Below are positions 11,999-24,169 of a stretch of 24,702 nt of DNA, in pieces. How positions within the stretch are numbered: position 1 is the first letter of the stretch; the number at the start of each line of letters is the position of its first letter. The stretch is from a virus. The stretch lies in IMG/VR virus record IMGVR_UViG_3300032073_000235, positions 1-24,702 of that record; one strand, 5' to 3'. The notes beneath the pieces were generated by a model that was not told the DNA's origin, did no database searches, and worked only from the letters and a program-made list of their open reading frames with translations. The position numbers and the translations under genes were made by a program.

Positions 11999-12206
11999 GT
12001 ACCACAATTTAATGCAAGATTCTGTGAATATGCTAGACTATATATAAGTGAGAGAAATTATCTCGCTTTGCCTAGGAATTCCTAGGCAATCCAATCGACT
12101 CTCAATTCGTACCACGTTGCACTCTTTATCAATTCGTACCACGTCACACTACTAAGTAAGTGGGAGCGCGTGTACCACATTGTTACAAGGGAAGCGCGTG
12201 TACCAC
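11999..12206 (+). repeat. Iteron-like GTACCAC direct repeats, cluster of five
   Basis: GTACCAC occurs in the same orientation at 11999, 12109, 12136, 12172 and 12200, with three further copies at 13066, 13232 and 13488. The cluster contains longer matches: CAATTCGTACCACGT twice 27 bp apart (ending at 12116 and 12143) and AGCGCGTGTACCACATT twice 28 bp apart (around 12165 and 12193). All eight copies lie outside protein genes within about 1.5 kb. Such spacing, close to multiples of a helical turn in part, is typical of initiator or regulator binding arrays; the binding protein is not known. Confidence 0.75.
12068..12089. repeat. Perfect 22-bp palindrome, copy 1 of the family
   Basis: The half-site TTGCCTAGGAA is followed by its exact reverse complement. 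It shares the central TAGGAATTCCTA with four other copies in the right arm. It lies upstream of the early operon, after an AT-rich TATATATAAG stretch, where it could act as an operator. Confidence 0.85.
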
Positions 12207-12226: not shown

Positions 12227-12246
12227 TGCCTAGGAATTCCTAGGCA
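12227..12246. repeat. Perfect 20-bp palindrome, copy 2
   Basis: The half-site TGCCTAGGAA is followed by its reverse complement. It lies only 19 bases before the ATG of the 227-aa gene, so in RNA it could form a hairpin next to the start codon, or as DNA it could be an operator close to the transcription start. Confidence 0.85.
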
Positions 12247-13153: not shown

Positions 13154-13173
13154 TGCATAGGAATTCCTATGCA
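13154..13173. repeat. Perfect 20-bp palindrome, copy 3
   Basis: TGCATAGGAA is followed by its reverse complement. It is located 40 bases past the terminator and about 80 bases upstream of the TATAAT box, an operator-like position. Confidence 0.85.
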
Positions 13174-14157: not shown

Positions 14158-15042
14158 ATGTTTGGAGGAATAACAGATTTACCACAGCTACACTCGTACG
14201 AATCAGCACTGGGACATTACACCCAGATAAAACCTATAAGGGGCAGCAACAATGTACGCCCCATCTGTAAGACTAAAAATGGTAGACGCAAGAAGCACAT
14301 GCAGATCATCAAGCGCGATGATGCGATAGCGTGTCGGCTGTACGATACCGACGTGGTGACCTTCTATAAGGATGGCACAGTTGAGTACAACTCAGGTCAC
14401 CATATCACTAACACTACGCACGCATTTGCTAGTGGGATTCTCTTTCCGCATGTTTGGTTTGCTACGAAACTTGGTAATACGGAAGTATTTATAGGGAAAA
14501 GGTTCTGGAGTTGGCGTGAGCCAGATCAAGTATCAACTACTTACCATGTCCCCCCTAGTAAAACCATCAAGATGAAATGTGAGGGTGATTCATGGGTTGC
14601 TATCGACCCGCCGAAACACTTTGAGTATTACCTCAAGCGCAAGGAGTACAACGCTAAACGTAAGCCGCTCAAAGAGTTTCAAGACCATTGCATACGCATG
14701 GCTAAACTAGCCGACGCTAAAGAGGTGCAAGGGGATAAACTTTATGACGTGCATGAAGATTGGTACTACCGCGATATATACAAAGACCTCGTAGAGGGGT
14801 CAAGCTCATGGGGTCGGCTTGTACCTATACTACTAGAGACAGCACGAGCAAGAGGTAACTTTTGGGATAGAAAACGTAGAAATACTTATTATTTCAATAC
14901 GCGAATAATCAAAGGTGCGATCAGCGACATAGTGAAGTATGCGTTCGCTGATGAAGTCTTTGAGGAGAAGGAAGTACACAAAAAGACTTTCAACGGCAAT
15001 GAAAGATACATCTGGAAAAAATACGAAGGAGGTAGAGAGTAA
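14158..15042 (+). CDS. Conserved phage protein of unknown function (294 aa)
   Basis: The product has 294 aa. The part around residues 57-87 (IACRLYDTDVVTFYKDGTVE, then YNSGHHITNTT) matches a pattern that I recall in many phage hypothetical proteins ('.RL..TDVV.F..DG...LNSGG..T.TT'), a beta-meander at the N-terminus. The C-terminal half is helical and basic. No catalytic motif is visible. It is preceded by AAGGAGACTATT. It lies directly upstream of the MoxR ATPase gene but is separated from it by 74 bp holding a short AACTTT tandem repeat and a palindrome, so it may be regulated separately from what follows. Confidence 0.75.
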   Translation: MFGGITDLPQLHSYESALGHYTQIKPIRGSNNVRPICKTKNGRRKKHMQIIKRDDAIACRLYDTDVVTFYKDGTVEYNSGHHITNTTHAFASGILFPHVWFATKLGNTEVFIGKRFWSWREPDQVSTTYHVPPSKTIKMKCEGDSWVAIDPPKHFEYYLKRKEYNAKRKPLKEFQDHCIRMAKLADAKEVQGDKLYDVHEDWYYRDIYKDLVEGSSSWGRLVPILLETARARGNFWDRKRRNTYYFNTRIIKGAISDIVKYAFADEVFEEKEVHKKTFNGNERYIWKKYEGGRE

Positions 15043-15082: not shown

Positions 15083-15102
15083 TGCATAGGAATTCCTATG
15101 CA
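15083..15102. repeat. Perfect 20-bp palindrome, copy 4
   Basis: TGCATAGGAATTCCTATGCA lies immediately upstream of the AAGGAG ribosome binding site and 14 bases before the ATG of the MoxR-type gene. It could be an operator, or an RNA stem that affects translation of the downstream genes. Confidence 0.85.
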
Positions 15103-15116
15103 CAAGGAGAAATAGA

Positions 15117-16181
15117 ATGCAAATGAATGAAATCCAAACTGTAACATTGAAAGAAGCTATCCAACTTATTGTCAATAACCCCAACGTGAGATTTATGCTC
15201 CGAGGCGAGCCGGGGGTTGGAAAGACTAGTATTGCTCACGAAATATCAAGACAGTCAAAATTACCCCTTGCGATGGGTAGACCTATTGACGTGGGCAACC
15301 TCGACCTTGGTGATGTGTGTATGCCTGTCATTGACCATGAGAATAAAGTCACACGCTACTACCCTAATGCTAGGTTCGGTATCCATAATGGTGAGCCAGT
15401 TGTTATGTGCTTTGATGAATTCACCAAAGGTGCTGACCCTGTAAAGAATATGCTTCACCCTGCGCTAGAAGTATTTATGCCCAGACTGGGAGACTTACTG
15501 ATACCAGAGGGAAGTATTATCTACATGACGGGTAACCTTGACACCGATGGGGTGGGTGATGGACTAGCCCAACACACTAGACAACGCATCGTTGAACTGA
15601 TTGTGCGTAAATCCACTTCATCTGAGTGGCTGGCGTGGGCAGTTAACAACAATATCCAATCTGTTGTGATGGCATGGGTAGACAGATACCCCCAATGTCT
15701 TGACTCCTACCTTGATAATGTTAAGAACGAGTTTATCTTTCACCCATCTAGCCCACAAGATAATGTGGTTTCACCTCGTACACTGGAGATTGCTAGTCGG
15801 ATAATTGAGAGCCGAGCAGGGTACACTGAGAATGCTTTGGTAGCTGCTTTGTCCGGTGCGGCTGGGGCAGCGTTCGCTGCAAGTATTACTTCCTTCATAC
15901 GTTTTCAAGAATCTTTACCTTCTATTCAATCCATCATAGAGACTCCTATGACTGCTTTAGTACCAGAAGAAGCAGGAGCACGGGCAGTATTATGTTTTGG
16001 ATTATTAGGACACGTTGAGAAAGATACGCTGACTAATGTATTGAAGTACCTACGTCGAATGGAAGAGGAGTGGCAAGTTATCTTCTGCGTTGCACTTGCC
16101 AAGCATGAGACTAAGAAGTTGATTGCCTTCGCTAACAGAGACTTTGGTAAGTGGGCTGCTGACAACGAAGACTTACTATAA
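15117..16181 (+). CDS. MoxR-type AAA+ ATPase
   Basis: The product has 354 aa with a complete AAA+ core. Walker A is 'GEPGVGKTS' (30-38), Walker B is 'VVMCFDEF' (95-102), sensor 1 is 'MTGN' (137-140), and arginine-finger candidates are Arg155/Arg157 in 'HTRQRIVEL'. The helical C-terminal part follows from about residue 165. MoxR-type ATPases work as ring-shaped chaperones that remodel or activate partner proteins, usually one with a VWA domain, and exactly such a protein is encoded 12 bp downstream. The target in a phage is unknown. The gene starts with AAGGAGAAATAGA before ATG. An alternative of the same fold is a CobS-like ATPase; the role would be similar. Confidence 0.9.
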   Translation: MQMNEIQTVTLKEAIQLIVNNPNVRFMLRGEPGVGKTSIAHEISRQSKLPLAMGRPIDVGNLDLGDVCMPVIDHENKVTRYYPNARFGIHNGEPVVMCFDEFTKGADPVKNMLHPALEVFMPRLGDLLIPEGSIIYMTGNLDTDGVGDGLAQHTRQRIVELIVRKSTSSEWLAWAVNNNIQSVVMAWVDRYPQCLDSYLDNVKNEFIFHPSSPQDNVVSPRTLEIASRIIESRAGYTENALVAALSGAAGAAFAASITSFIRFQESLPSIQSIIETPMTALVPEEAGARAVLCFGLLGHVEKDTLTNVLKYLRRMEEEWQVIFCVALAKHETKKLIAFANRDFGKWAADNEDLL

Positions 16182-16193
16182 AGGAGAACAACA

Positions 16194-17387
16194 ATGAGGA
16201 ATGCAGAACGAAAGTTTAAAGCTATAAAGATTGGACTCATGCGGTCACCGCCGTTTGGGTTACTACGCGGGATTGCCATGTATGGTAATACTCATCTGAC
16301 TACTGAAATATCTACAGCGTGCACTGATGGTAGAGACGAATGGTACAACCTTGCTTTCTTGTTTGAGGAGATTGCTAACGGAGATAAAGGAGCAGCTTTT
16401 GTATTGGCACACGAGTGGATGCACAAAGCGGCTAAACATTTCTATACATACAAGGGGTTGGAAAAGATAAACCAACAGATTGCTGATATAGCTTTGGATA
16501 TCTGGATCAATGATCGTCTTGTGACCGCTGACCCCAAGTCAATGTACATCGAGTTTCCAGTGGGGAAAGATGGTAAACGCATAGGCATACATATGCCTGA
16601 GTACCACGATTGGTCAGTGAAAGCTATCTTCTATGACTTGTTTGAGAAGGCAAAAGACAATCCAGATTGGGGAGAAGGAGGAGGTGGTGGTCTTGATGAC
16701 CACGATTGGGAAGGAGCAAATAAACTGTCCAAGGAAGAACAGAAACAAGTCGAAGGTGATATCAACGAAGCGGTAAGACAAAGTATCCACGGGATGCGAG
16801 CGGGTGCAGCGGGGCTGCGCGATGCGCTAGGTCTTGGTGAGTTGGTAACACCGAAAGTAGATTGGCGAGTAGCGTTGCGTATATTCCTCAATGCGACTTG
16901 CCGTAAGAAGGAACGTTCTACATGGCGCAGACCCAACCGCCGGTTCTTACACGAAGACATCATTATGCCTACGCTAGAAGGTAATAGCATTAATGAGATT
17001 GTGTTTGCGCGTGACGCATCTGGCTCTATGTATTTCGAGAACAGATTGGCAGAGGTGACAAGCGAAATGGTTGGTATATGTAACACCCTCAACGTTGACA
17101 AGATTCATCTGCTTGACTGGGATGGGAGTGTTGAGTATCGAGGTGTGTTCACCAGTGACCAACTAAAGGACGCTCCAGAACTTAAGACCCCAATGGGTGG
17201 AGGAGGAACTACCCCTCAGTGTGTGGTTGATTACATGGAGAAGGAAGGCATCAAACCAGATTGCGTCGTGGTACTCACCGATGGAGAGATTAATGACTGG
17301 GGTAATTGGACTGTCCCTGTGTTGTGGGGTATCGCTAATCGCAAAACAATAACTGCCCCTATGGGTAAAACAATTAACATTGACTAA
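16194..17387 (+). CDS. HExxH putative metallopeptidase-VWA domain protein
   Basis: The product has 397 aa. The N-terminal half carries 'LAHEWMHKAAKH' with the zinc-protease signature HExxH at residues 73-77, then 'ALDIWIND' as a possible third-ligand region, as in the DUF2201 putative metallopeptidase family. A glycine-rich hinge (EGGGGGLDDHDW, 161-172) leads to a helical linker. The C-terminal VWA-like domain has the metal-ion adhesion site: 'DASGS' (274-278), 'GGGGTT' (336-341) and 'LTDGE' (361-365). It is the expected client or adaptor partner of the MoxR-type ATPase encoded just upstream. Whether the protease part is active is unknown. The ribosome binding site is AAGGAGAACAACA. Confidence 0.88.
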   Translation: MRNAERKFKAIKIGLMRSPPFGLLRGIAMYGNTHLTTEISTACTDGRDEWYNLAFLFEEIANGDKGAAFVLAHEWMHKAAKHFYTYKGLEKINQQIADIALDIWINDRLVTADPKSMYIEFPVGKDGKRIGIHMPEYHDWSVKAIFYDLFEKAKDNPDWGEGGGGGLDDHDWEGANKLSKEEQKQVEGDINEAVRQSIHGMRAGAAGLRDALGLGELVTPKVDWRVALRIFLNATCRKKERSTWRRPNRRFLHEDIIMPTLEGNSINEIVFARDASGSMYFENRLAEVTSEMVGICNTLNVDKIHLLDWDGSVEYRGVFTSDQLKDAPELKTPMGGGGTTPQCVVDYMEKEGIKPDCVVVLTDGEINDWGNWTVPVLWGIANRKTITAPMGKTINID

Positions 17388-17398
17388 AGGAGAACGAC

Positions 17399-17698
17399 AT
17401 GAGTGAAGTAAAAAGAGGAAGAGGTAGACCACGTTTGAGTGACGAGGAGCGAAAGGCTAGAAATACAGAGTATAGAAAGAAGAACGCTCTTAAAAGTAAA
17501 AACGTAACCGCAAGCGTGGAAGCCACAAAAATACTGTGGGATTGCGTGGTTGTTATGTCTGCCAAGATAGGAGTTAAGTTAACCATTAGCCAAGTTATAA
17601 CTTTACTTCTAAACGATTGGCTTGCAGAAAATGATCCTACAGGTGAACTAAGAAACGATGAACGCTACATAAATGACAGAGAAAGGAGAAAGATATGA
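17399..17698 (+). CDS. AT-hook DNA-binding protein (99 aa)
   Basis: The product has 99 aa. Residues 5-12 (KRGRGRPR) are a perfect AT-hook, which inserts into the minor groove of AT-rich DNA. A basic helix follows (EERKARNTEYRKKNALK), then a C-terminal region of beta strand plus two helices ('VTASVEATKILWDCVVVMSA', 'LTISQVITLLLNDWL') that could be a small dimerisation or ribbon-helix-helix-like fold. It lies between the MoxR/VWA pair and the DUF3150-like gene and overlaps the latter by 4 bp (ATGA). It may be a regulator or DNA organiser; which DNA it binds is unknown. Confidence 0.8.
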   Translation: MSEVKRGRGRPRLSDEERKARNTEYRKKNALKSKNVTASVEATKILWDCVVVMSAKIGVKLTISQVITLLLNDWLAENDPTGELRNDERYINDRERRKI

Positions 17699-18564
17699 GT
17701 GCAATAGCAAACAGTGCAGTATTGGTACGTCTAAGTATTGGTGTATGGGGAGCAAGCAAGCGTAACAAAGAACTTGAACATGAGGTTGCTCTAAACAAGA
17801 AAGCTAGTCCCAAAGCCATGCGTATGTATGACAACCTGATGGTGGGTTCAACAGGTCATAGTGATATCCAGAAATATGCAGCGGGGTCACGTCTATGGCA
17901 TAACACCATGACGTTGCCTTGGGATGAACGTGGTTATCGGCTTTGTCCTACTAGTCTATTCTTAGACTACAAATCTCAACACAACTTAAAACGAGTGGGG
18001 TTTGAACAGTTGGTAGATACCTTTCGAGTTAAGTATTTCAGTTATCGTGAGACTGCTGAAGAACATAGAGGAGAGATGTTCAACGAACTTGACTACCCAC
18101 CAGTGAGTGAAGTCATGGGGAAATTTTACTGGGACTTTGCATCTGTACCTGTACCAGAGTCAGGACACTTTTGCGTGGACTTACCCGCGCAGGAGATGGA
18201 GGAACTTAAACTTTCATGCGATGCAGAAGTAGAACGTAAGGTAGCTGAAGCCAGCAAGGAGAATGAGAAACGGATACTCAAAGAGCTGCAAGGTATAAGT
18301 GCGAAGTGTACGGATGAGGAAGATTATGAAAACTTTGAGGATGATAATAGACGATGGCATGACACGTTTGTTTCTAATCCGTTAGACCTATGCCGTATGC
18401 TAAAGCATATGAACTTAACTGATGACCCCAAGATCGAAGAAGCACGTCAACGTCTTGAGGATATTATGGTAGGTAAAACAAAGGAAATGTTCAAAGACTC
18501 TAGCACTGTGCGTAAGACAGTGAAGGAAGAAGTGGACTCTATTATTAATTCATACGATTGGTAG
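17695..18564 (+). CDS. DUF3150-like protein, possible third member of the MoxR/VWA set
   Basis: The product has 289 aa. The N-terminal half has 'LVRLSIGVWGASKRNKELEH', 'WHNTMTLPWDERGYRLCP' (TLPW at 73-76), 'EMFNELDYP' (127-135) and 'VPVPESGHFCVDL' (151-163). I recall this order of motifs (rLs...tg.k.d........LPW.d.g.RlLp....lf...dYP......f.....PvP....fr..l) from DUF3150 phage proteins, which are often encoded beside MoxR/CobS-type ATPases and VWA/CobT-type proteins. The C-terminal half is acidic and coiled. No enzyme motif is seen. The family assignment is from memory and should be tested; the genetic linkage is direct. Confidence 0.65.
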   Translation: MSAIANSAVLVRLSIGVWGASKRNKELEHEVALNKKASPKAMRMYDNLMVGSTGHSDIQKYAAGSRLWHNTMTLPWDERGYRLCPTSLFLDYKSQHNLKRVGFEQLVDTFRVKYFSYRETAEEHRGEMFNELDYPPVSEVMGKFYWDFASVPVPESGHFCVDLPAQEMEELKLSCDAEVERKVAEASKENEKRILKELQGISAKCTDEEDYENFEDDNRRWHDTFVSNPLDLCRMLKHMNLTDDPKIEEARQRLEDIMVGKTKEMFKDSSTVRKTVKEEVDSIINSYDW

Positions 18565-18574
18565 GAGGTATGAT

Positions 18575-19480
18575 ATGAGAGAAGTATATACACACAATGG
18601 TCTTAAAGTAAAAAGAATGCTGAGAAAAATAAAAGATAAAGAACATGGGTCGTTTACAAACATGCCAAGGAATGTATTGATGGACTGTGTGTTAGACCCA
18701 CATCAGCTTATCAACAGAGATACCGCTGACTTTACAGTTGGTCTTTTGACTCATGTATCTGAGAGACATCCAGAATATACATTCTGGGTTGATACTGTTC
18801 TTGATGGCAAGAAAGGTTACATGAAACATATGTATGTGTTCAACGATGAAGAATGTTTGGGCAAGATAGATTGGAGTTACTACAACGACTCGATGGAGTT
18901 TCGCAATGAACGAGTAAGCGCGGATATAAAACGAGGCGACTGCAAGAAAACTTCAAAGATATCTACAGCGAAAAATATTTTTGCTCGTTACTTTTATCCT
19001 CTCACCCTGTATGAAGAAATGGAGACAGTGGAGCTTGATGTGATGGGTGCTTTGGCTGACCATACTTGGTCACTAAAGAGGGGAAGAGACGATGCAAGTC
19101 GTGACATTATAGAGGTGCTAACTACGATGCTCGGACGTGAAAATCCCGAACTACTTGAGTTTGTAAGAGCGAATGGTATGAGTAAACAACTAGAGTCGAA
19201 AGCAAAAGATAAAGAAGCTATAGCAATTACGAATAGTCTTAATAAGTCTATAGAAGATAGCAAAGGTCAGTTTATCTTTCTCAAAGAGAGTATGTACTAT
19301 TCAGCAGCAGCGGGGAAGGTCAGGCGTATGAAACGTGATGATCTTTCTGAAGATGTACTCACTGCTATTGGTTTACTTAAAATTGCAGAAAATAACACAG
19401 CCATCGATGGAGTAGGTTACAAAGCTACTGCTGATAAATTCTATATTACGGAGGAACTAAATTTTGACTTCGACGAATGA
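18575..19480 (+). CDS. Unknown phage protein (301 aa)
   Basis: The product has 301 aa, mixed alpha/beta at the start ('GSFTNMPRNVLMDCVLDPHQ'; 'HPEYTFWVDTVLDGKKGYMK') and helical later ('ALADHTWSLKRGRDDASRDI'; 'LLEFVRANGMSKQLESKAKD'). It contains 'FRNERVSADIKRGDCKKTSK' near residues 109-128. I do not recognise a family or catalytic motif. It follows the DUF3150-like gene by 10 bp (ribosome binding site AGGAGGTATGAT, beginning in the previous gene's end) and its last codons contain the start of the next gene, so it belongs to the same operon as the MoxR/VWA set. Confidence 0.75.
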   Translation: MREVYTHNGLKVKRMLRKIKDKEHGSFTNMPRNVLMDCVLDPHQLINRDTADFTVGLLTHVSERHPEYTFWVDTVLDGKKGYMKHMYVFNDEECLGKIDWSYYNDSMEFRNERVSADIKRGDCKKTSKISTAKNIFARYFYPLTLYEEMETVELDVMGALADHTWSLKRGRDDASRDIIEVLTTMLGRENPELLEFVRANGMSKQLESKAKDKEAIAITNSLNKSIEDSKGQFIFLKESMYYSAAAGKVRRMKRDDLSEDVLTAIGLLKIAENNTAIDGVGYKATADKFYITEELNFDFDE

Positions 19481-19748
19481 TAAACAAACTAGAGGCAAGG
19501 GAGCAAAGCCTTCCATGCTACACACCAACGTGCGACTACCTAAGTATGTAGTAGATTACTTCAAAGAGTTTCCTAGCTATACCAAAGAAATACGTAGGGT
19601 ACTTGAGGAACACGTTGACAAAGCAGATAAGGAAGGGGCTACTCGCGTAGCCCTAGACCAACAACGATGGCAAGACATTCTTGCTGAAGATGAGAACTGG
19701 CCTAACGATGGAAACATTGTAGGGATAAAGGAGGACGATGATGAATAA
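19464..19748 (+). CDS. Ribbon-helix-helix-type DNA-binding protein (94 aa)
   Basis: The product has 94 aa. Start TTG 19464 has GGAGG at a 9-base spacing and overlaps the preceding gene by 17 bp; an in-frame ATG at 19515 would give a 77-aa form that still holds the domain. Residues about 19-51 (LHTNVRLPKYVVDYFKEFPS, then YTKEIRRVLEEHV) fit a ribbon-helix-helix fold: a short basic strand, a helix, a turn and a second helix, like Arc/CopG-type repressors. Such dimers bind palindromic operators, so this protein is one candidate for the repeated palindromes. The C-terminal part is acidic. No toxin gene is seen next to it. Confidence 0.7.
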   Translation: MTSTNDKQTRGKGAKPSMLHTNVRLPKYVVDYFKEFPSYTKEIRRVLEEHVDKADKEGATRVALDQQRWQDILAEDENWPNDGNIVGIKEDDDE

Positions 19749-20228: not shown

Positions 20229-20377
20229 TGAAGAAACAAAAGGATGATGGGTCTTGTCCTACTCTAGCAGAGGTACGCAAGCGAGACCCGACAATGAACG
20301 AAAGCAAGTACGCATCCTACAAGCGAGGATGGCTACAAGTTAAAAACAAAAAGATAGCCCTTCCAAAATCTGCATAG
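20228..20377 (+). CDS. Small basic protein (49 aa) ending inside a palindrome
   Basis: The ATG at 20228 (another at 20225), preceded by GGAGAACG, gives 49 aa beginning MKKQKDDGSCPTLAEVRKRD and ending in a Lys-rich tail. The stop codon TAG (20375-20377) lies within palindrome copy 5, and an intrinsic terminator follows 27 bases later, so this is the last gene of the 13562-20377 operon. No family is recognised; the product is basic and helical. Confidence 0.6.
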   Translation: MKKQKDDGSCPTLAEVRKRDPTMNESKYASYKRGWLQVKNKKIALPKSA

Positions 20378-20390
20378 GAATTCCTATGCA
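20371..20390. repeat. Perfect 20-bp palindrome, copy 5
   Basis: It is identical to copies 3 and 4 (TGCATAGGAATTCCTATGCA). It contains the stop codon of the 49-aa gene and precedes the operon terminator and the promoter of the polymerase unit, so it again marks an operon boundary. Confidence 0.85.
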
Positions 20391-20467: not shown

Positions 20468-20773
20468 ATGGCTCTTACCCCCGAAAAGAAAGTTAAGAAT
20501 AAAGTAGTCAAGCTACTGAAAGAATACGAGGCTTACTACTTCTTCCCTGCAACCTACGGCTTTGGTCGTAGCGGTGTGCCAGATATAATTGTTTGTTACC
20601 GAGGACGTTTCATTGGTGTGGAATGTAAAGCAGGTGCAAACAAACCTACCCCATTACAAGAACGAGAGCTTACCGCTATTAACAAAGCCAAAGGCATAAC
20701 ATTTATAATTAACGAAGATAACTTAGGAGTGCTCCAAGAGTACTTAGCATCCCATGAACCTACTCACCCTTGA
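20468..20773 (+). CDS. VRR-NUC domain nuclease (101 aa)
   Basis: The product has 101 aa, almost entirely one VRR-NUC domain: 'GFGRSGVPDIIVCYRGRFIG' with Asp39, then 'VECKAG' with Glu52 and Lys54, and 'PTPLQERELTAI' with Gln64, which together form the PD-(D/E)XK catalytic site. Stand-alone VRR-NUC enzymes cut branched DNA such as Holliday junctions, so it may resolve replication or recombination intermediates before packaging. No ribosome binding site is seen; the start may be leaderless. The end overlaps the polymerase start by 20 bp, suggesting the two products act together. Confidence 0.88.
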   Translation: MALTPEKKVKNKVVKLLKEYEAYYFFPATYGFGRSGVPDIIVCYRGRFIGVECKAGANKPTPLQERELTAINKAKGITFIINEDNLGVLQEYLASHEPTHP

Positions 20774-22601
20774 CTTTGAAACTTACTACTCAAAAGATTT
20801 TAGTTTAAGTAAACTCACTACTGAAGAATATATACGTGACCCTCGTTTTGAAGTCATCGGAGTTGCTGTTAAATGCAATGGGCAGGAACTATCATCAAGC
20901 AGAGCTGCTGCGGCACAATGGTTTTCTGGTAGCAAGAACCAAGTAAAACAATTTTTATCTCAGTTTGATTGGTCAAACTCTGTGGCTTTAGCCCACAACG
21001 CTATGTTCGACATGGCTATCCTTAATTGGCACTTTGGTATTAAACCCAAGTTGATTGCTGATACGTTAGCAATGTCACGCGCTATCCACTCTATTGAAGT
21101 GGGTGGGGGGTTAGCAGCTTTATCTGAGTATTACGAACTAGGTAAGAAAGGAACCGAGGTGCATGACGCGATAGGTAAGAAGCGTTTGGATTTTACACCC
21201 CAAGAATTAAAAGCATATGGTGGGTACTGCATACAAGACGTTGAGCTGACGCACAAACTATTTAAGGTGTTGAGAAAAGGGTTTCCTAATTTTGAACTGT
21301 CGTTAATAGACTTAACCCTACGTATGTTTACCGAACCTGCTCTAGAATTAGATAAAGATATACTTGACCAGCATTTAAAAGAAGTAGTAGATACTAAAGC
21401 AGCTCTAATGGCTAAGATTACCCATGAGAAAACACAACTGACTTCTAACCCACAGTTTGCTGAGTTGCTCCGTGAGTACAACATTGAACCCCCTACGAAG
21501 GTAAGCCCTGCTACAGGTAAAGAGACGTTTGCTTTTGCCAAAAGTGATGAAGGTTTTAAGGCGCTTCAGGACCACAAAAATCCGTCGGTACAGGCTCTTG
21601 TAGCTGCTAGATTAGGAGTAAGGTCTACCATCGAAGAAACAAGGACACAGCGATTCTTGGACATTGCCAGTAGGGGCAAGCTACCCATACCACTACGCTA
21701 CTACGCTGCCCACACAGGCAGATGGGGTGGGGATGACAAGATTAATATGCAGAACTTACCGCGAGGCAGTGAGCTTAAAAAAGCAATGTGCGCTCCAGAA
21801 GGGTACAAGTTTGTGGATTGTGACCTATCTCAGATAGAGGCGCGGACTCTGGCGTGGTTGTCTGAGGAGGACGAATTGGTTCAAGCGTTCGACAGGGGTG
21901 ATGATGTATACAAAATGATGGCCTCTGCTATCTACGATAAGCCCGAAGATGACATATCAAAAGAAGAACGGTTTGTGGGTAAGACTACTATACTAGGTGC
22001 AGGGTATGGAATGGGCGCACTTAAGTTTAGAAACCAGCTCAAGAACTTTGGAGTGGAACTGGAACAGGAAGAATGTGAACGTATTATAAAGGTATACAGA
22101 AGCACTTATGCGGGTATACCTAAGCTATGGAGAGCGGCGGGCGACAAATTAGATATTATTATGCAAGATAAAGTTGCTTACTTTGGCTGCTCTAAAATAC
22201 TTATGGTGGATGGTGTTAAAGGTATAAAGCTCCCTAACGGTTTATATGTTAAGTACCCAAACCTAAGAAGGGAGAGGGACGAAGATGGCAGGACTGAGAT
22301 TGTATACGACACGCGGAAAGGTCGATCCATTATGTCTACTAGGATATATGGAGGCAAAGTTATTGAGAACGTGTGCCAAGCACTGGCAAGAATTGTTATT
22401 GGTGAACAGTTGCTTCGTGTAGCACAGAAATATAAAGTTGTTATGACGGTACATGATGCTATAGGTTGTATAGTCCCAGAGGATGAAGCCGAGGAAGCGA
22501 TGCAGTTAGTAGAGAAGGTTATGAAAATAAAACCTAAATGGGCGCTTGATTTACCCCTCGATTGTGAGGGAGGTTATGGTAATTCTTATGGAACTTGTTA
22601 G
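20754..22601 (+). CDS. polA: Family A DNA polymerase with 3'-5' exonuclease domain
   Basis: The product has 615 aa and is the phage replicative polymerase. The exonuclease domain has 'LDFET' (Asp7, Glu9), 'AHNAMFD' (Asp86) and 'YCIQDVELT' (Tyr158, Asp162). The polymerase domain has motif A 'DCDLSQIEAR' (catalytic Asp357), motif B 'RFVGKTTILGAGYG' (Arg406, Lys410, Tyr418) and motif C 'VHDAIG' (Asp568). The residue equivalent to Phe762 of E. coli Pol I is Leu414; in marine phage studies a Leu here has been linked to slower, more accurate synthesis and temperate lifestyle. Motif C reads HDA instead of the usual HDE. There is no 5'-3' nuclease domain. The start ATG 20754 lies inside the nuclease gene. 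Confidence 0.95.
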   Translation: MNLLTLDFETYYSKDFSLSKLTTEEYIRDPRFEVIGVAVKCNGQELSSSRAAAAQWFSGSKNQVKQFLSQFDWSNSVALAHNAMFDMAILNWHFGIKPKLIADTLAMSRAIHSIEVGGGLAALSEYYELGKKGTEVHDAIGKKRLDFTPQELKAYGGYCIQDVELTHKLFKVLRKGFPNFELSLIDLTLRMFTEPALELDKDILDQHLKEVVDTKAALMAKITHEKTQLTSNPQFAELLREYNIEPPTKVSPATGKETFAFAKSDEGFKALQDHKNPSVQALVAARLGVRSTIEETRTQRFLDIASRGKLPIPLRYYAAHTGRWGGDDKINMQNLPRGSELKKAMCAPEGYKFVDCDLSQIEARTLAWLSEEDELVQAFDRGDDVYKMMASAIYDKPEDDISKEERFVGKTTILGAGYGMGALKFRNQLKNFGVELEQEECERIIKVYRSTYAGIPKLWRAAGDKLDIIMQDKVAYFGCSKILMVDGVKGIKLPNGLYVKYPNLRRERDEDGRTEIVYDTRKGRSIMSTRIYGGKVIENVCQALARIVIGEQLLRVAQKYKVVMTVHDAIGCIVPEDEAEEAMQLVEKVMKIKPKWALDLPLDCEGGYGNSYGTC

Positions 22602-23098: not shown

Positions 23099-23510
23099 AT
23101 ACAGTTGCACTATACGATCTATTACGGATGGTGATGGGTTACGCGTGGACATCGACTTGGGTTTTGGTGTCACTCTTAGGGGTGACGATGGTAGGGGCGT
23201 TAATATTCGTTTGTTTGGAATTGACGCACCCGAATCTCGCACTAGAAATAAGAAGGAGAAGCTACATGGGTTACTCGCAAAAGAATGCGTCAAGAAGGAA
23301 TGTAGAGTTGGAGAAACGTACGTCCTTAGAACGAAGGAGAAAGGAAAATTTGGTAGATGGTTGGGAGATATCAAAACGTCAAAGGGATGGATTACGAAGT
23401 TCTTACTCCAATCAAAGTTGGCTGTTCCTTATGAAGGACAGAATAAAAAAGAAATTAAAGCAGCTCACGAAAAGAACCGACAAGAGTTAATCAAGATGGG
23501 ACTACTATGA
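23088..23510 (+). CDS. Staphylococcal-nuclease-like (thermonuclease) protein
   Basis: ATG 23088 follows AAGGAGAGGAAT and gives 140 aa; a longer frame to 23037 overlaps the zinc-ribbon gene and has no ribosome binding site. The sequence follows the SNase fold: 'ITDGDGLRVDIDLGFGV' (Asp16 for Ca2+), 'IRLFGIDAPES' (catalytic Arg41, Asp46, Glu49), 'GKFGRWLG' (second catalytic Arg90) and 'LLQSKLAVPYEGQ'. All expected catalytic residues are present. Phage SNases of this type probably degrade host DNA or process DNA. No signal peptide is seen, so it acts inside the cell. It overlaps the next gene by 4 bp (ATGA). Confidence 0.9.
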   Translation: MLYEYSCTIRSITDGDGLRVDIDLGFGVTLRGDDGRGVNIRLFGIDAPESRTRNKKEKLHGLLAKECVKKECRVGETYVLRTKEKGKFGRWLGDIKTSKGWITKFLLQSKLAVPYEGQNKKEIKAAHEKNRQELIKMGLL

Positions 23511-24169
23511 CAACTTGGAGTTACAGTAAGGTTAACTCTTTTAAACAATGCCCTAAAAAATACTACCATATGTATGTTAAGAAAGATGTTAAGGATACAG
23601 GTAGCGTTGCTACAAGGTATGGCAACTTAGTGCATAAAGCTGCTGAAGAATATATAAAAGACGGAAGTGAGTTACCAAAAAAGTACGACTTTATGCAGCG
23701 CACTCTCGATACTTTTAATAACATCAAAGGGGACAAACATTGTGAAATTAGACTTGGGGTAGCTAAGTATGATGATGTCTACGAACCTACTAAATTCTTT
23801 GCAAAAAATGTTTGGTACAGGGGTATAGCTGACTTACTGATAATAAACGAGGACAAAGCGTATCTTATAGATTATAAGACAGGCAAAAGTGCAAACTATG
23901 CGGATACTAAACAGTTAGATTTACTTGCAGGGGCGGTCTTCATAAACTTTCCTGAAGTAAAAAAGATAAAGTCCGCTCTGTCTTTTGTAGTATGTAAAAA
24001 GTTTATATCTAAAGAACACACAGCCGATATGTATAAAGCATACATAAATGTATTCGATGAACTACTAGAAAGAATTGAAGCGGCTTCTAAAGAAGATGTA
24101 TGGAACGCAGTTGAAAGTGGGTTGTGTAAATTTTGCCCCGTTACTAGCTGTGAACATAACAGGAGGTAG
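23507..24169 (+). CDS. Cas4/RecB-like PD-(D/E)XK exonuclease with four cysteines
   Basis: The product has 220 aa with the RecB-family nuclease order: 'YGNLVHKAAEEY' (His43), 'YRGIADLLII' (Asp109), 'AYLIDYKTGK' (Asp122, Lys124) and 'QLDLLAGAVF' (Gln136). Four cysteines are placed as in iron-sulphur Cas4/AddB-type nucleases: Cys15 (SFKQCPKKYY) and C207-x2-C210-x4-C215 (GLCKFCPVTSC). It is probably a single-strand DNA exonuclease used in recombination or DNA processing. No CRISPR array or other cas gene is present, so a CRISPR role is not indicated. Its start overlaps the thermonuclease gene. Confidence 0.88.
   Translation: MTTWSYSKVNSFKQCPKKYYHMYVKKDVKDTGSVATRYGNLVHKAAEEYIKDGSELPKKYDFMQRTLDTFNNIKGDKHCEIRLGVAKYDDVYEPTKFFAKNVWYRGIADLLIINEDKAYLIDYKTGKSANYADTKQLDLLAGAVFINFPEVKKIKSALSFVVCKKFISKEHTADMYKAYINVFDELLERIEAASKEDVWNAVESGLCKFCPVTSCEHNRR

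Follow-up and report, generated by a model that had tools for sequence, protein, structure and literature searches.

Gene content of the MoxR-VWA-DUF3150 locus

We analyzed a 24,702-nucleotide stretch of DNA from a marine phage (positions 1 to 24,702 of IMG/VR record IMGVR_UViG_3300032073_000235, hereafter the window) with linked plus-strand genes for a MoxR-type AAA+ ATPase, a DUF2201 metallopeptidase-VWA protein, and a DUF3150-related protein. A reading made from the letters alone (the sequence-only reading) had described these genes, together with a small AT-hook gene, as one functional set of chaperone, host-takeover, or anti-defense type with its own putative DNA-binding subunit. One conserved unit and, by family, a chaperone-like machine were supported by our comparisons, and the DNA-binding subunit was not. 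The open reading frames and coordinates of that reading also held on the window, including the 12-bp gap between the MoxR and VWA genes.

The 354-amino acid (aa) MoxR-type ATPase (15117..16181, plus strand) belonged to the N4 gp24 family (phrog_1297 'ATPase', 4.5e-39) and was complete as proposed, with Walker A (GEPGVGKT), Walker B (CFDEF), sensor-1 N140, and R157. G33-x-G35-K36, D100, N140, and the arginine finger R157 were invariant across the alignment (n = 39 sequences). The best match of the MoxR profile in the PDB was midasin (4.6e-25), followed, among others, by a CbbQ/NirQ/NorQ protein (5.1e-5) and NorQ (1.3e-4). The window ATPase had no match to PF08406 (CbbQ_C), against which the AAA protein of pR997 scored 6.5e-18.

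The second gene (16194..17387, plus strand) encoded a 397-aa DUF2201 metallopeptidase-VWA protein of the N4 gp25 family (phrog_1314, 1.3e-70). This protein exceeded the Pfam cut-offs for DUF2201_N (PF13203; 71.5 bits, 1.1e-19) and DUF2201 (PF09967; 39.5 bits, 7.3e-10), and its architecture was a DUF2201 zincin domain plus a VWA domain. The combination of HExxH and a full VWA metal site that had been noticed in the letters was confirmed. The former was HEWMH (residues 73-77; 16410..16424, plus strand) with D102 (16497-16499) as the candidate third ligand, and the latter (MIDAS) comprised DxSxS (D274, S276, S278; 17013..17027, plus strand), T339 (17208-17210), and D363 (17280-17282). H73, E74, H77, D102, and the MIDAS residues were invariant in 37 aligned sequences from phage relatives. 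The MIDAS was likewise retained in every plasmid orthologue aligned, whereas HExxH had become LKVMQ in two Paraburkholderia orthologues (L108, L130) and ATVLH in Variovorax (L109). The tree resolved the Paraburkholderia and Variovorax changes as separate events, and HExxH was thus lost at least twice on plasmids. Since the MIDAS was kept through both losses, we regard gripping and remodeling, by way of VWA docking, as the probable core of the activity and proteolytic cleavage as secondary. The plasmid orthologues represent a natural dissection, with the peptidase motif lost and the MIDAS kept.

'HNH endonuclease' is the RefSeq and PHROG_1314 name for the family that includes N4 gp25, LUZ7 gp039, pYD6-A PYDG_00052, and phage G gp576 (loci L028, L119, L121, and L117). 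We rejected this label, as the four phage members searched against Pfam matched the DUF2201 metallopeptidase and VWA families but had no HNH domain, and the name is likely a misannotation propagated across many phage records. A further locus (L055, 1528-6968) seemingly contained two tandem MoxR-VWA pairs ahead of one DUF3150 gene.

The third protein (289 aa; 17695..18564, plus strand) was related to DUF3150 remotely, by profile and fold. Neither it nor any of 15 aligned phage relatives had a direct Pfam match to PF11348. Its closest relative in annotated phage records was the 'DUF3150' protein of Synechococcus phage MinM2 (23% identity, 2e-14), and a profile from phage members alone matched two Nitrospirota proteins (L112 and L113; 3.2e-18 and 1.5e-13) that are true PF11348 members above the cut-off (35.4 and 33.5 bits). 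A Cupriavidus plasmid homologue had a weak PF11348 match (3.9e-4), and two Cupriavidus homologues are named DUF3150 in RefSeq. With the AlphaFold2 model (predicted local distance difference test score, pLDDT, of 85.7), Foldseek returned a phage 'DUF3150 domain-containing protein' (A0A6J7WV52; E 1.9e-16, template modeling score 0.80), and no match to a solved structure was found. The original guess of a DUF3150-like protein was right at the level of this remote branch. DUF3150 was not mentioned, and DUF2201 seldom, in the open-licence literature searched, an absence that is no proof of novelty.

The small basic protein encoded between the VWA and DUF3150 genes (17399..17698, plus strand) did contain the literal AT-hook motif GRGRPR, but it scored 14.5 bits against the Pfam cut-off of 17.4. 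Among the first 24 loci, this gene was found in that position only in the window, L001, L002, and L017, and L001 had two tandem copies. Most relatives lacked it, with VWA followed directly by DUF3150. The gene is thus a lineage-specific accessory, inserted mainly near the window lineage, and we rejected its product as a core subunit.

Conservation and distribution in phages and plasmids

MoxR and VWA were both present in 41/41 distinct IMG/VR relatives for which 3.6 kb or more of sequence was available ahead of DUF3150. A fast-evolving 301-aa protein (18575..19480, plus strand) was always encoded 3' of DUF3150 in the window's phage group (63/63 distinct loci, 55 after a gap and 8 overlapping). 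Gene order varied among phages between MoxR-VWA-DUF3150 and VWA-MoxR-DUF3150, which argues for selection on the set and not mere inheritance of a segment. Cyanophage MinM2 had MoxR, a small gene, DUF3150, three small genes, and then VWA. The idea of one multi-protein system, which would have weakened had the protein proved unrelated to DUF3150 and the gene order unconserved, withstood this check: the kinship held, and order conservation was seen in other phages and on plasmids too.

Whole-record profile searches did not find DUF3150 in N4, LUZ7, A5, pYD6-A, 98PfluR60PP, CRP-7, phage G, or SCTP-2, and we therefore treat the trio and the pair as distinct variants. This also removed a DUF3150 counterpart in N4 or CRP-7 from consideration, as none was detected by profile. 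The trees did not establish a single origin of the trio either: they required 2-3 label changes and did not fix the place of origin.

With tblastn, the DUF3150-like protein was found on 42 plasmids, nearly all from Burkholderiales. About ten inspected plasmids (Burkholderiales and Rhodovastum) all contained the MoxR-type trio, with the ATP-binding, DUF3150-like, and VWA-like proteins encoded in that order. Several small genes separated the ATP-binding and DUF3150-like genes on a Simplicispira plasmid, and on one inspected plasmid the MoxR gene was unannotated but there was room for it. Several Burkholderiales trios were directly 5' of type IV secretion genes. Ahead of the trio, Burkholderiales plasmids encoded a 443-519 aa protein (L110 5058-6593, L115 3030-4589, L108 5246-6577), and the L110 copy that we tested had no Pfam match.

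A second, parallel trio consisted of a canonical DUF3150 protein (1e-60) whose gene had that of an AAA_5/CbbQ_C protein on one side and that of a VWA protein of CobT type on the other. The canonical DUF3150 query had relatives on 1,045 plasmids, 925 of which were typed conjugative. The partners were AAA, DUF3150, and VWA at all seven inspected canonical loci, and a lambda-exonuclease gene with bet, recT, or ssb adjoined the trio in 5/7 of these plasmids. In Comamonas and Alcaligenes, ssb and exo separated an AAA gene from DUF3150-VWA. Earlier work on pCAR1 described its MoxR and VWA genes of this group, pointed to conserved counterparts in R478, Rts1, SXT, and R391, and suggested a role in conjugative transfer (PMC2642839). 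Deletions in SXT that included bet, exo, s067, s068, and s070 reduced transfer (PMC2791158); judging by gene order, s067-s070 are probably the AAA-DUF3150-VWA genes. Nitrospirota elements (L030, L134, and L116), plasmids among them, carried DUF3150 alongside an AAA ATPase of another kind and a DUF1257-like protein, along with DUF2997 in L116, and a DUF2201 protein was not found for these elements in the records searched.

Shared palindromes and the early DNA cluster

A perfect 20-bp palindrome, TGCATAGGAATTCCTATGCA, was located at 15083..15102 and ended 14 bases before the MoxR start. Its core, TAGGAATTCCTA, occurred in five copies in the window. Other members of the family were at 12068..12089 (TTGCCTAGGAATTCCTAGGCAA), 12227..12246 (5' of the first plus-strand gene), 13154..13173, and 20371..20390 (5' of the endonuclease-PolA operon). 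Chance gave 0.46 perfect 16-bp palindromes per window, and two copies of one never arose in 200 simulations. The operator-like site that had been noted in front of the set is therefore real and its repetition far above chance. Near relatives L001 and L002 also had five copies at matching places. Other lineages (L005/L011, L042, L043, L046, L070, L093, and L099) had their own unrelated palindrome of 16-22 bp, with 3-8 copies in the early region; the positions recurred and the sequence was wholly different. Repeated palindromes were present in 17/71 loci, and in 11 of these 17 at least one copy adjoined the MoxR or VWA start, often ~30 bases upstream. This arrangement supports co-regulation of the module with the early DNA genes. 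Predicted Sigma-70 promoters were fewer in the region than in shuffles.

Genes for the virion and packaging (capsid, portal, terminase) were on the minus strand of the window. The plus strand began with a 227-aa gene, small genes, a 294-aa gene, and the MoxR, VWA, AT-hook, and DUF3150-like genes, and continued with the 301-aa gene, a 94-aa gene, a small gene, an endonuclease or Holliday-junction-resolvase-like gene of the shared early cluster (20468..20773, plus strand; phrog_93, 2.1e-19), a family A DNA polymerase (20754..22601, plus strand; PF00476, 6.7e-40), a nuclease, and a PD-(D/E)XK exonuclease (23507..24169, plus strand; phrog_69, 7.6e-23; PF12705, 4.4e-15). Because the plus-strand genes include the endonuclease, polymerase, and exonuclease, we place the module in a DNA-metabolism cluster. 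In near relative G001 this cluster extended into a SNF2-type helicase and a 937-aa DUF927 protein.

The conserved 294-aa protein directly 5' of MoxR (14158..15042, plus strand) had 53 matches among the loci, also 5' of MoxR, and no homologue was found among the MinM2 or N4 neighbors tested. The 301-aa protein had a mean column identity of 25% and a confident AlphaFold2 model (pLDDT 92.9), for which the fold search matched uncharacterized phage proteins only. It was not found in plasmid loci or among MinM2, N4, and CRP-7 neighbors. MM2_64 and MM2_72 of MinM2, tried as possible homologues of the 301-aa and 294-aa genes that flank the trio, gave no match, in what was a weak test with single sequences. 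The conserved 94-aa protein (19464-19748) had a weak likeness to the C-terminus of the anti-repressor Ant (phrog_377, 2.2e-4) and is a candidate early-region regulator.

Proposed function and comparison with known systems

Our favored reading, to which we would give about an even chance, is that the three genes encode one AAA+ remodeling machine of mobile elements, with a client that is part of the early DNA stage and not solely of the virion. What we observed are the identities of the genes and their linkage, the catalytic and MIDAS residues, the distribution of the set, its place in the early cluster, and the palindromes that it shares; complex formation, an adaptor role, and a DNA-stage client are inferences. 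MoxR would form a hexameric motor on which the DUF2201 protein docks, gripping the client through the VWA metal site, and the helical DUF3150 protein would be a third, adaptor-like subunit. ATP hydrolysis would then pull on or remodel the client, and the zincin domain may clip it, with cleavage outside the core activity. This type of machine is suggested by the MoxR profile, which matched midasin, CbbQ, and NorQ, and by CbbQO, which works as an AAA+ motor with a VWA substrate adaptor whose MIDAS is required (PMC4660213).

The client would most likely come from replication, recombination, or the establishment of incoming DNA. The module shares a strand and a palindrome with the polymerase operon, opposite the virion genes; the trio also occurs on plasmids, which should have no virion to build, with conjugation genes nearby; and recombination genes adjoin the canonical trio. 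Common occurrence in phages and conjugative plasmids suggests a shared early DNA-stage job and not particle building alone, and the link of DUF3150 to both phages and plasmids speaks against a purely virion-chaperone role for the MoxR-VWA pair that is widespread in phages.

Several points weigh against this proposal. Binding among MoxR, VWA, and DUF3150 is presumed. In Schitoviridae and other phages, the MoxR-DUF2201 pair is employed with no detectable DUF3150, and DUF3150 is therefore not always needed. The Burkholderiales trio is often beside type IV secretion genes and not recombination genes, and since the window has neither a CbbQ-type MoxR nor a CobT-type VWA, the link to recombination is by analogy. 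Lastly, the SXT deletions in the bet/exo region cut transfer only up to 10-fold (PMC2791158).

More tentatively, and with less than an even chance, DUF3150 may be the common third subunit of a class of mobile-element AAA+/VWA machines with at least two pairings (MoxR-DUF2201 and CbbQ-CobT), partnered by Red-like recombination or replication proteins and acting on the DNA of the element as it enters or is replicated. The relatives of DUF3150 on about 1,000 plasmids belong to a family unnamed in the literature searched, and its association, in phages as well as plasmids, with AAA+/VWA motors of two kinds makes a three-subunit machine testable.

A host-takeover or anti-defense machine that dismantles or inactivates a host complex attacking incoming DNA seems rather unlikely. 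Phages and conjugative plasmids both face entry into a new cell, the location is of early type with operator-like control, and conflict systems include related MoxR-vWA couples (PMC7159879). However, a PADLOC search gave no match for VWA or DUF3150, and its best MoxR match was a 38-residue P-loop stretch of IetA. The genes also look core and not accessory, and their well-conserved order and DUF3150 are less typical of anti-defense genes.

We consider it unlikely that the motor and VWA-peptidase serve as a chaperone that matures or assembles virion parts, a role suggested for them in group 2.2 jumbo phages with the same metallopeptidase-vWA fusion (PMC7824862). The interaction of MoxR p618 with VWA p892 in Acidianus two-tailed virus, linked to tail development (PMC4124505), gives this explanation partial support, and roseophage RPP1 has a second structural module near its gp24/gp25 homologues (PMC4193335). 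Yet the trio is also on plasmids, most DUF3150-carrying plasmids are typed conjugative, and the window trio shares its strand with the replication genes and lies apart from those of the virion. An envelope-machine version, acting on the tail in phages and on type IV secretion in plasmids, would partly rescue the chaperone. A regulated protease, with the zincin as the main activity and MoxR feeding it substrates, is highly unlikely: HExxH and D102 are invariant in every phage relative aligned, but two separate plasmid lineages lost HExxH and kept the MIDAS.

Known systems share some of the parts of the proposed remodeling machine. N4 gp24/gp25 (Schitoviridae), which are middle genes in N4 (PMC4193335), combine the same MoxR (phrog_1297) and DUF2201 metallopeptidase-VWA (phrog_1314) families, but no DUF3150 was found anywhere in N4, LUZ7, A5, pYD6-A, or 98PfluR60PP. 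Group 2.2 jumbo phages have a VWA partner of the same metallopeptidase-vWA architecture (PMC7824862); unlike the window set, theirs was reported as a pair, and the VWA carriers G and SCTP-2 had no detectable DUF3150. In Acidianus two-tailed virus, p618/p892 are also a viral MoxR and VWA that interact, but they were reported without a peptidase domain (PMC7824862) and are linked to the tail of the virion. CbbQO rubisco activase and midasin similarly couple a MoxR-clade motor to a MIDAS VWA arm, but they have no DUF3150 and no zincin, and their clients are known. The CbbQ-type AAA-DUF3150-CobT-type VWA cassette of SXT/R391-like elements, pCAR1, R478, Rts1, and relatives has the same three kinds of part, a homologous third protein, and a mobile-element setting. 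It differs in that its AAA protein has CbbQ_C and its CobT-like VWA protein lacks the DUF2201 zincin of the window protein. The clustered 'cobS' and 'cobT' of CRP-810-type roseophages, reported as vitamin B12 genes (PMC11288001), may be a CbbQ/CobT-type AAA+/VWA pair of the same class, and if DUF3150 does define such a class, the phage 'cobS/cobT' genes reported in this way may fall within it.

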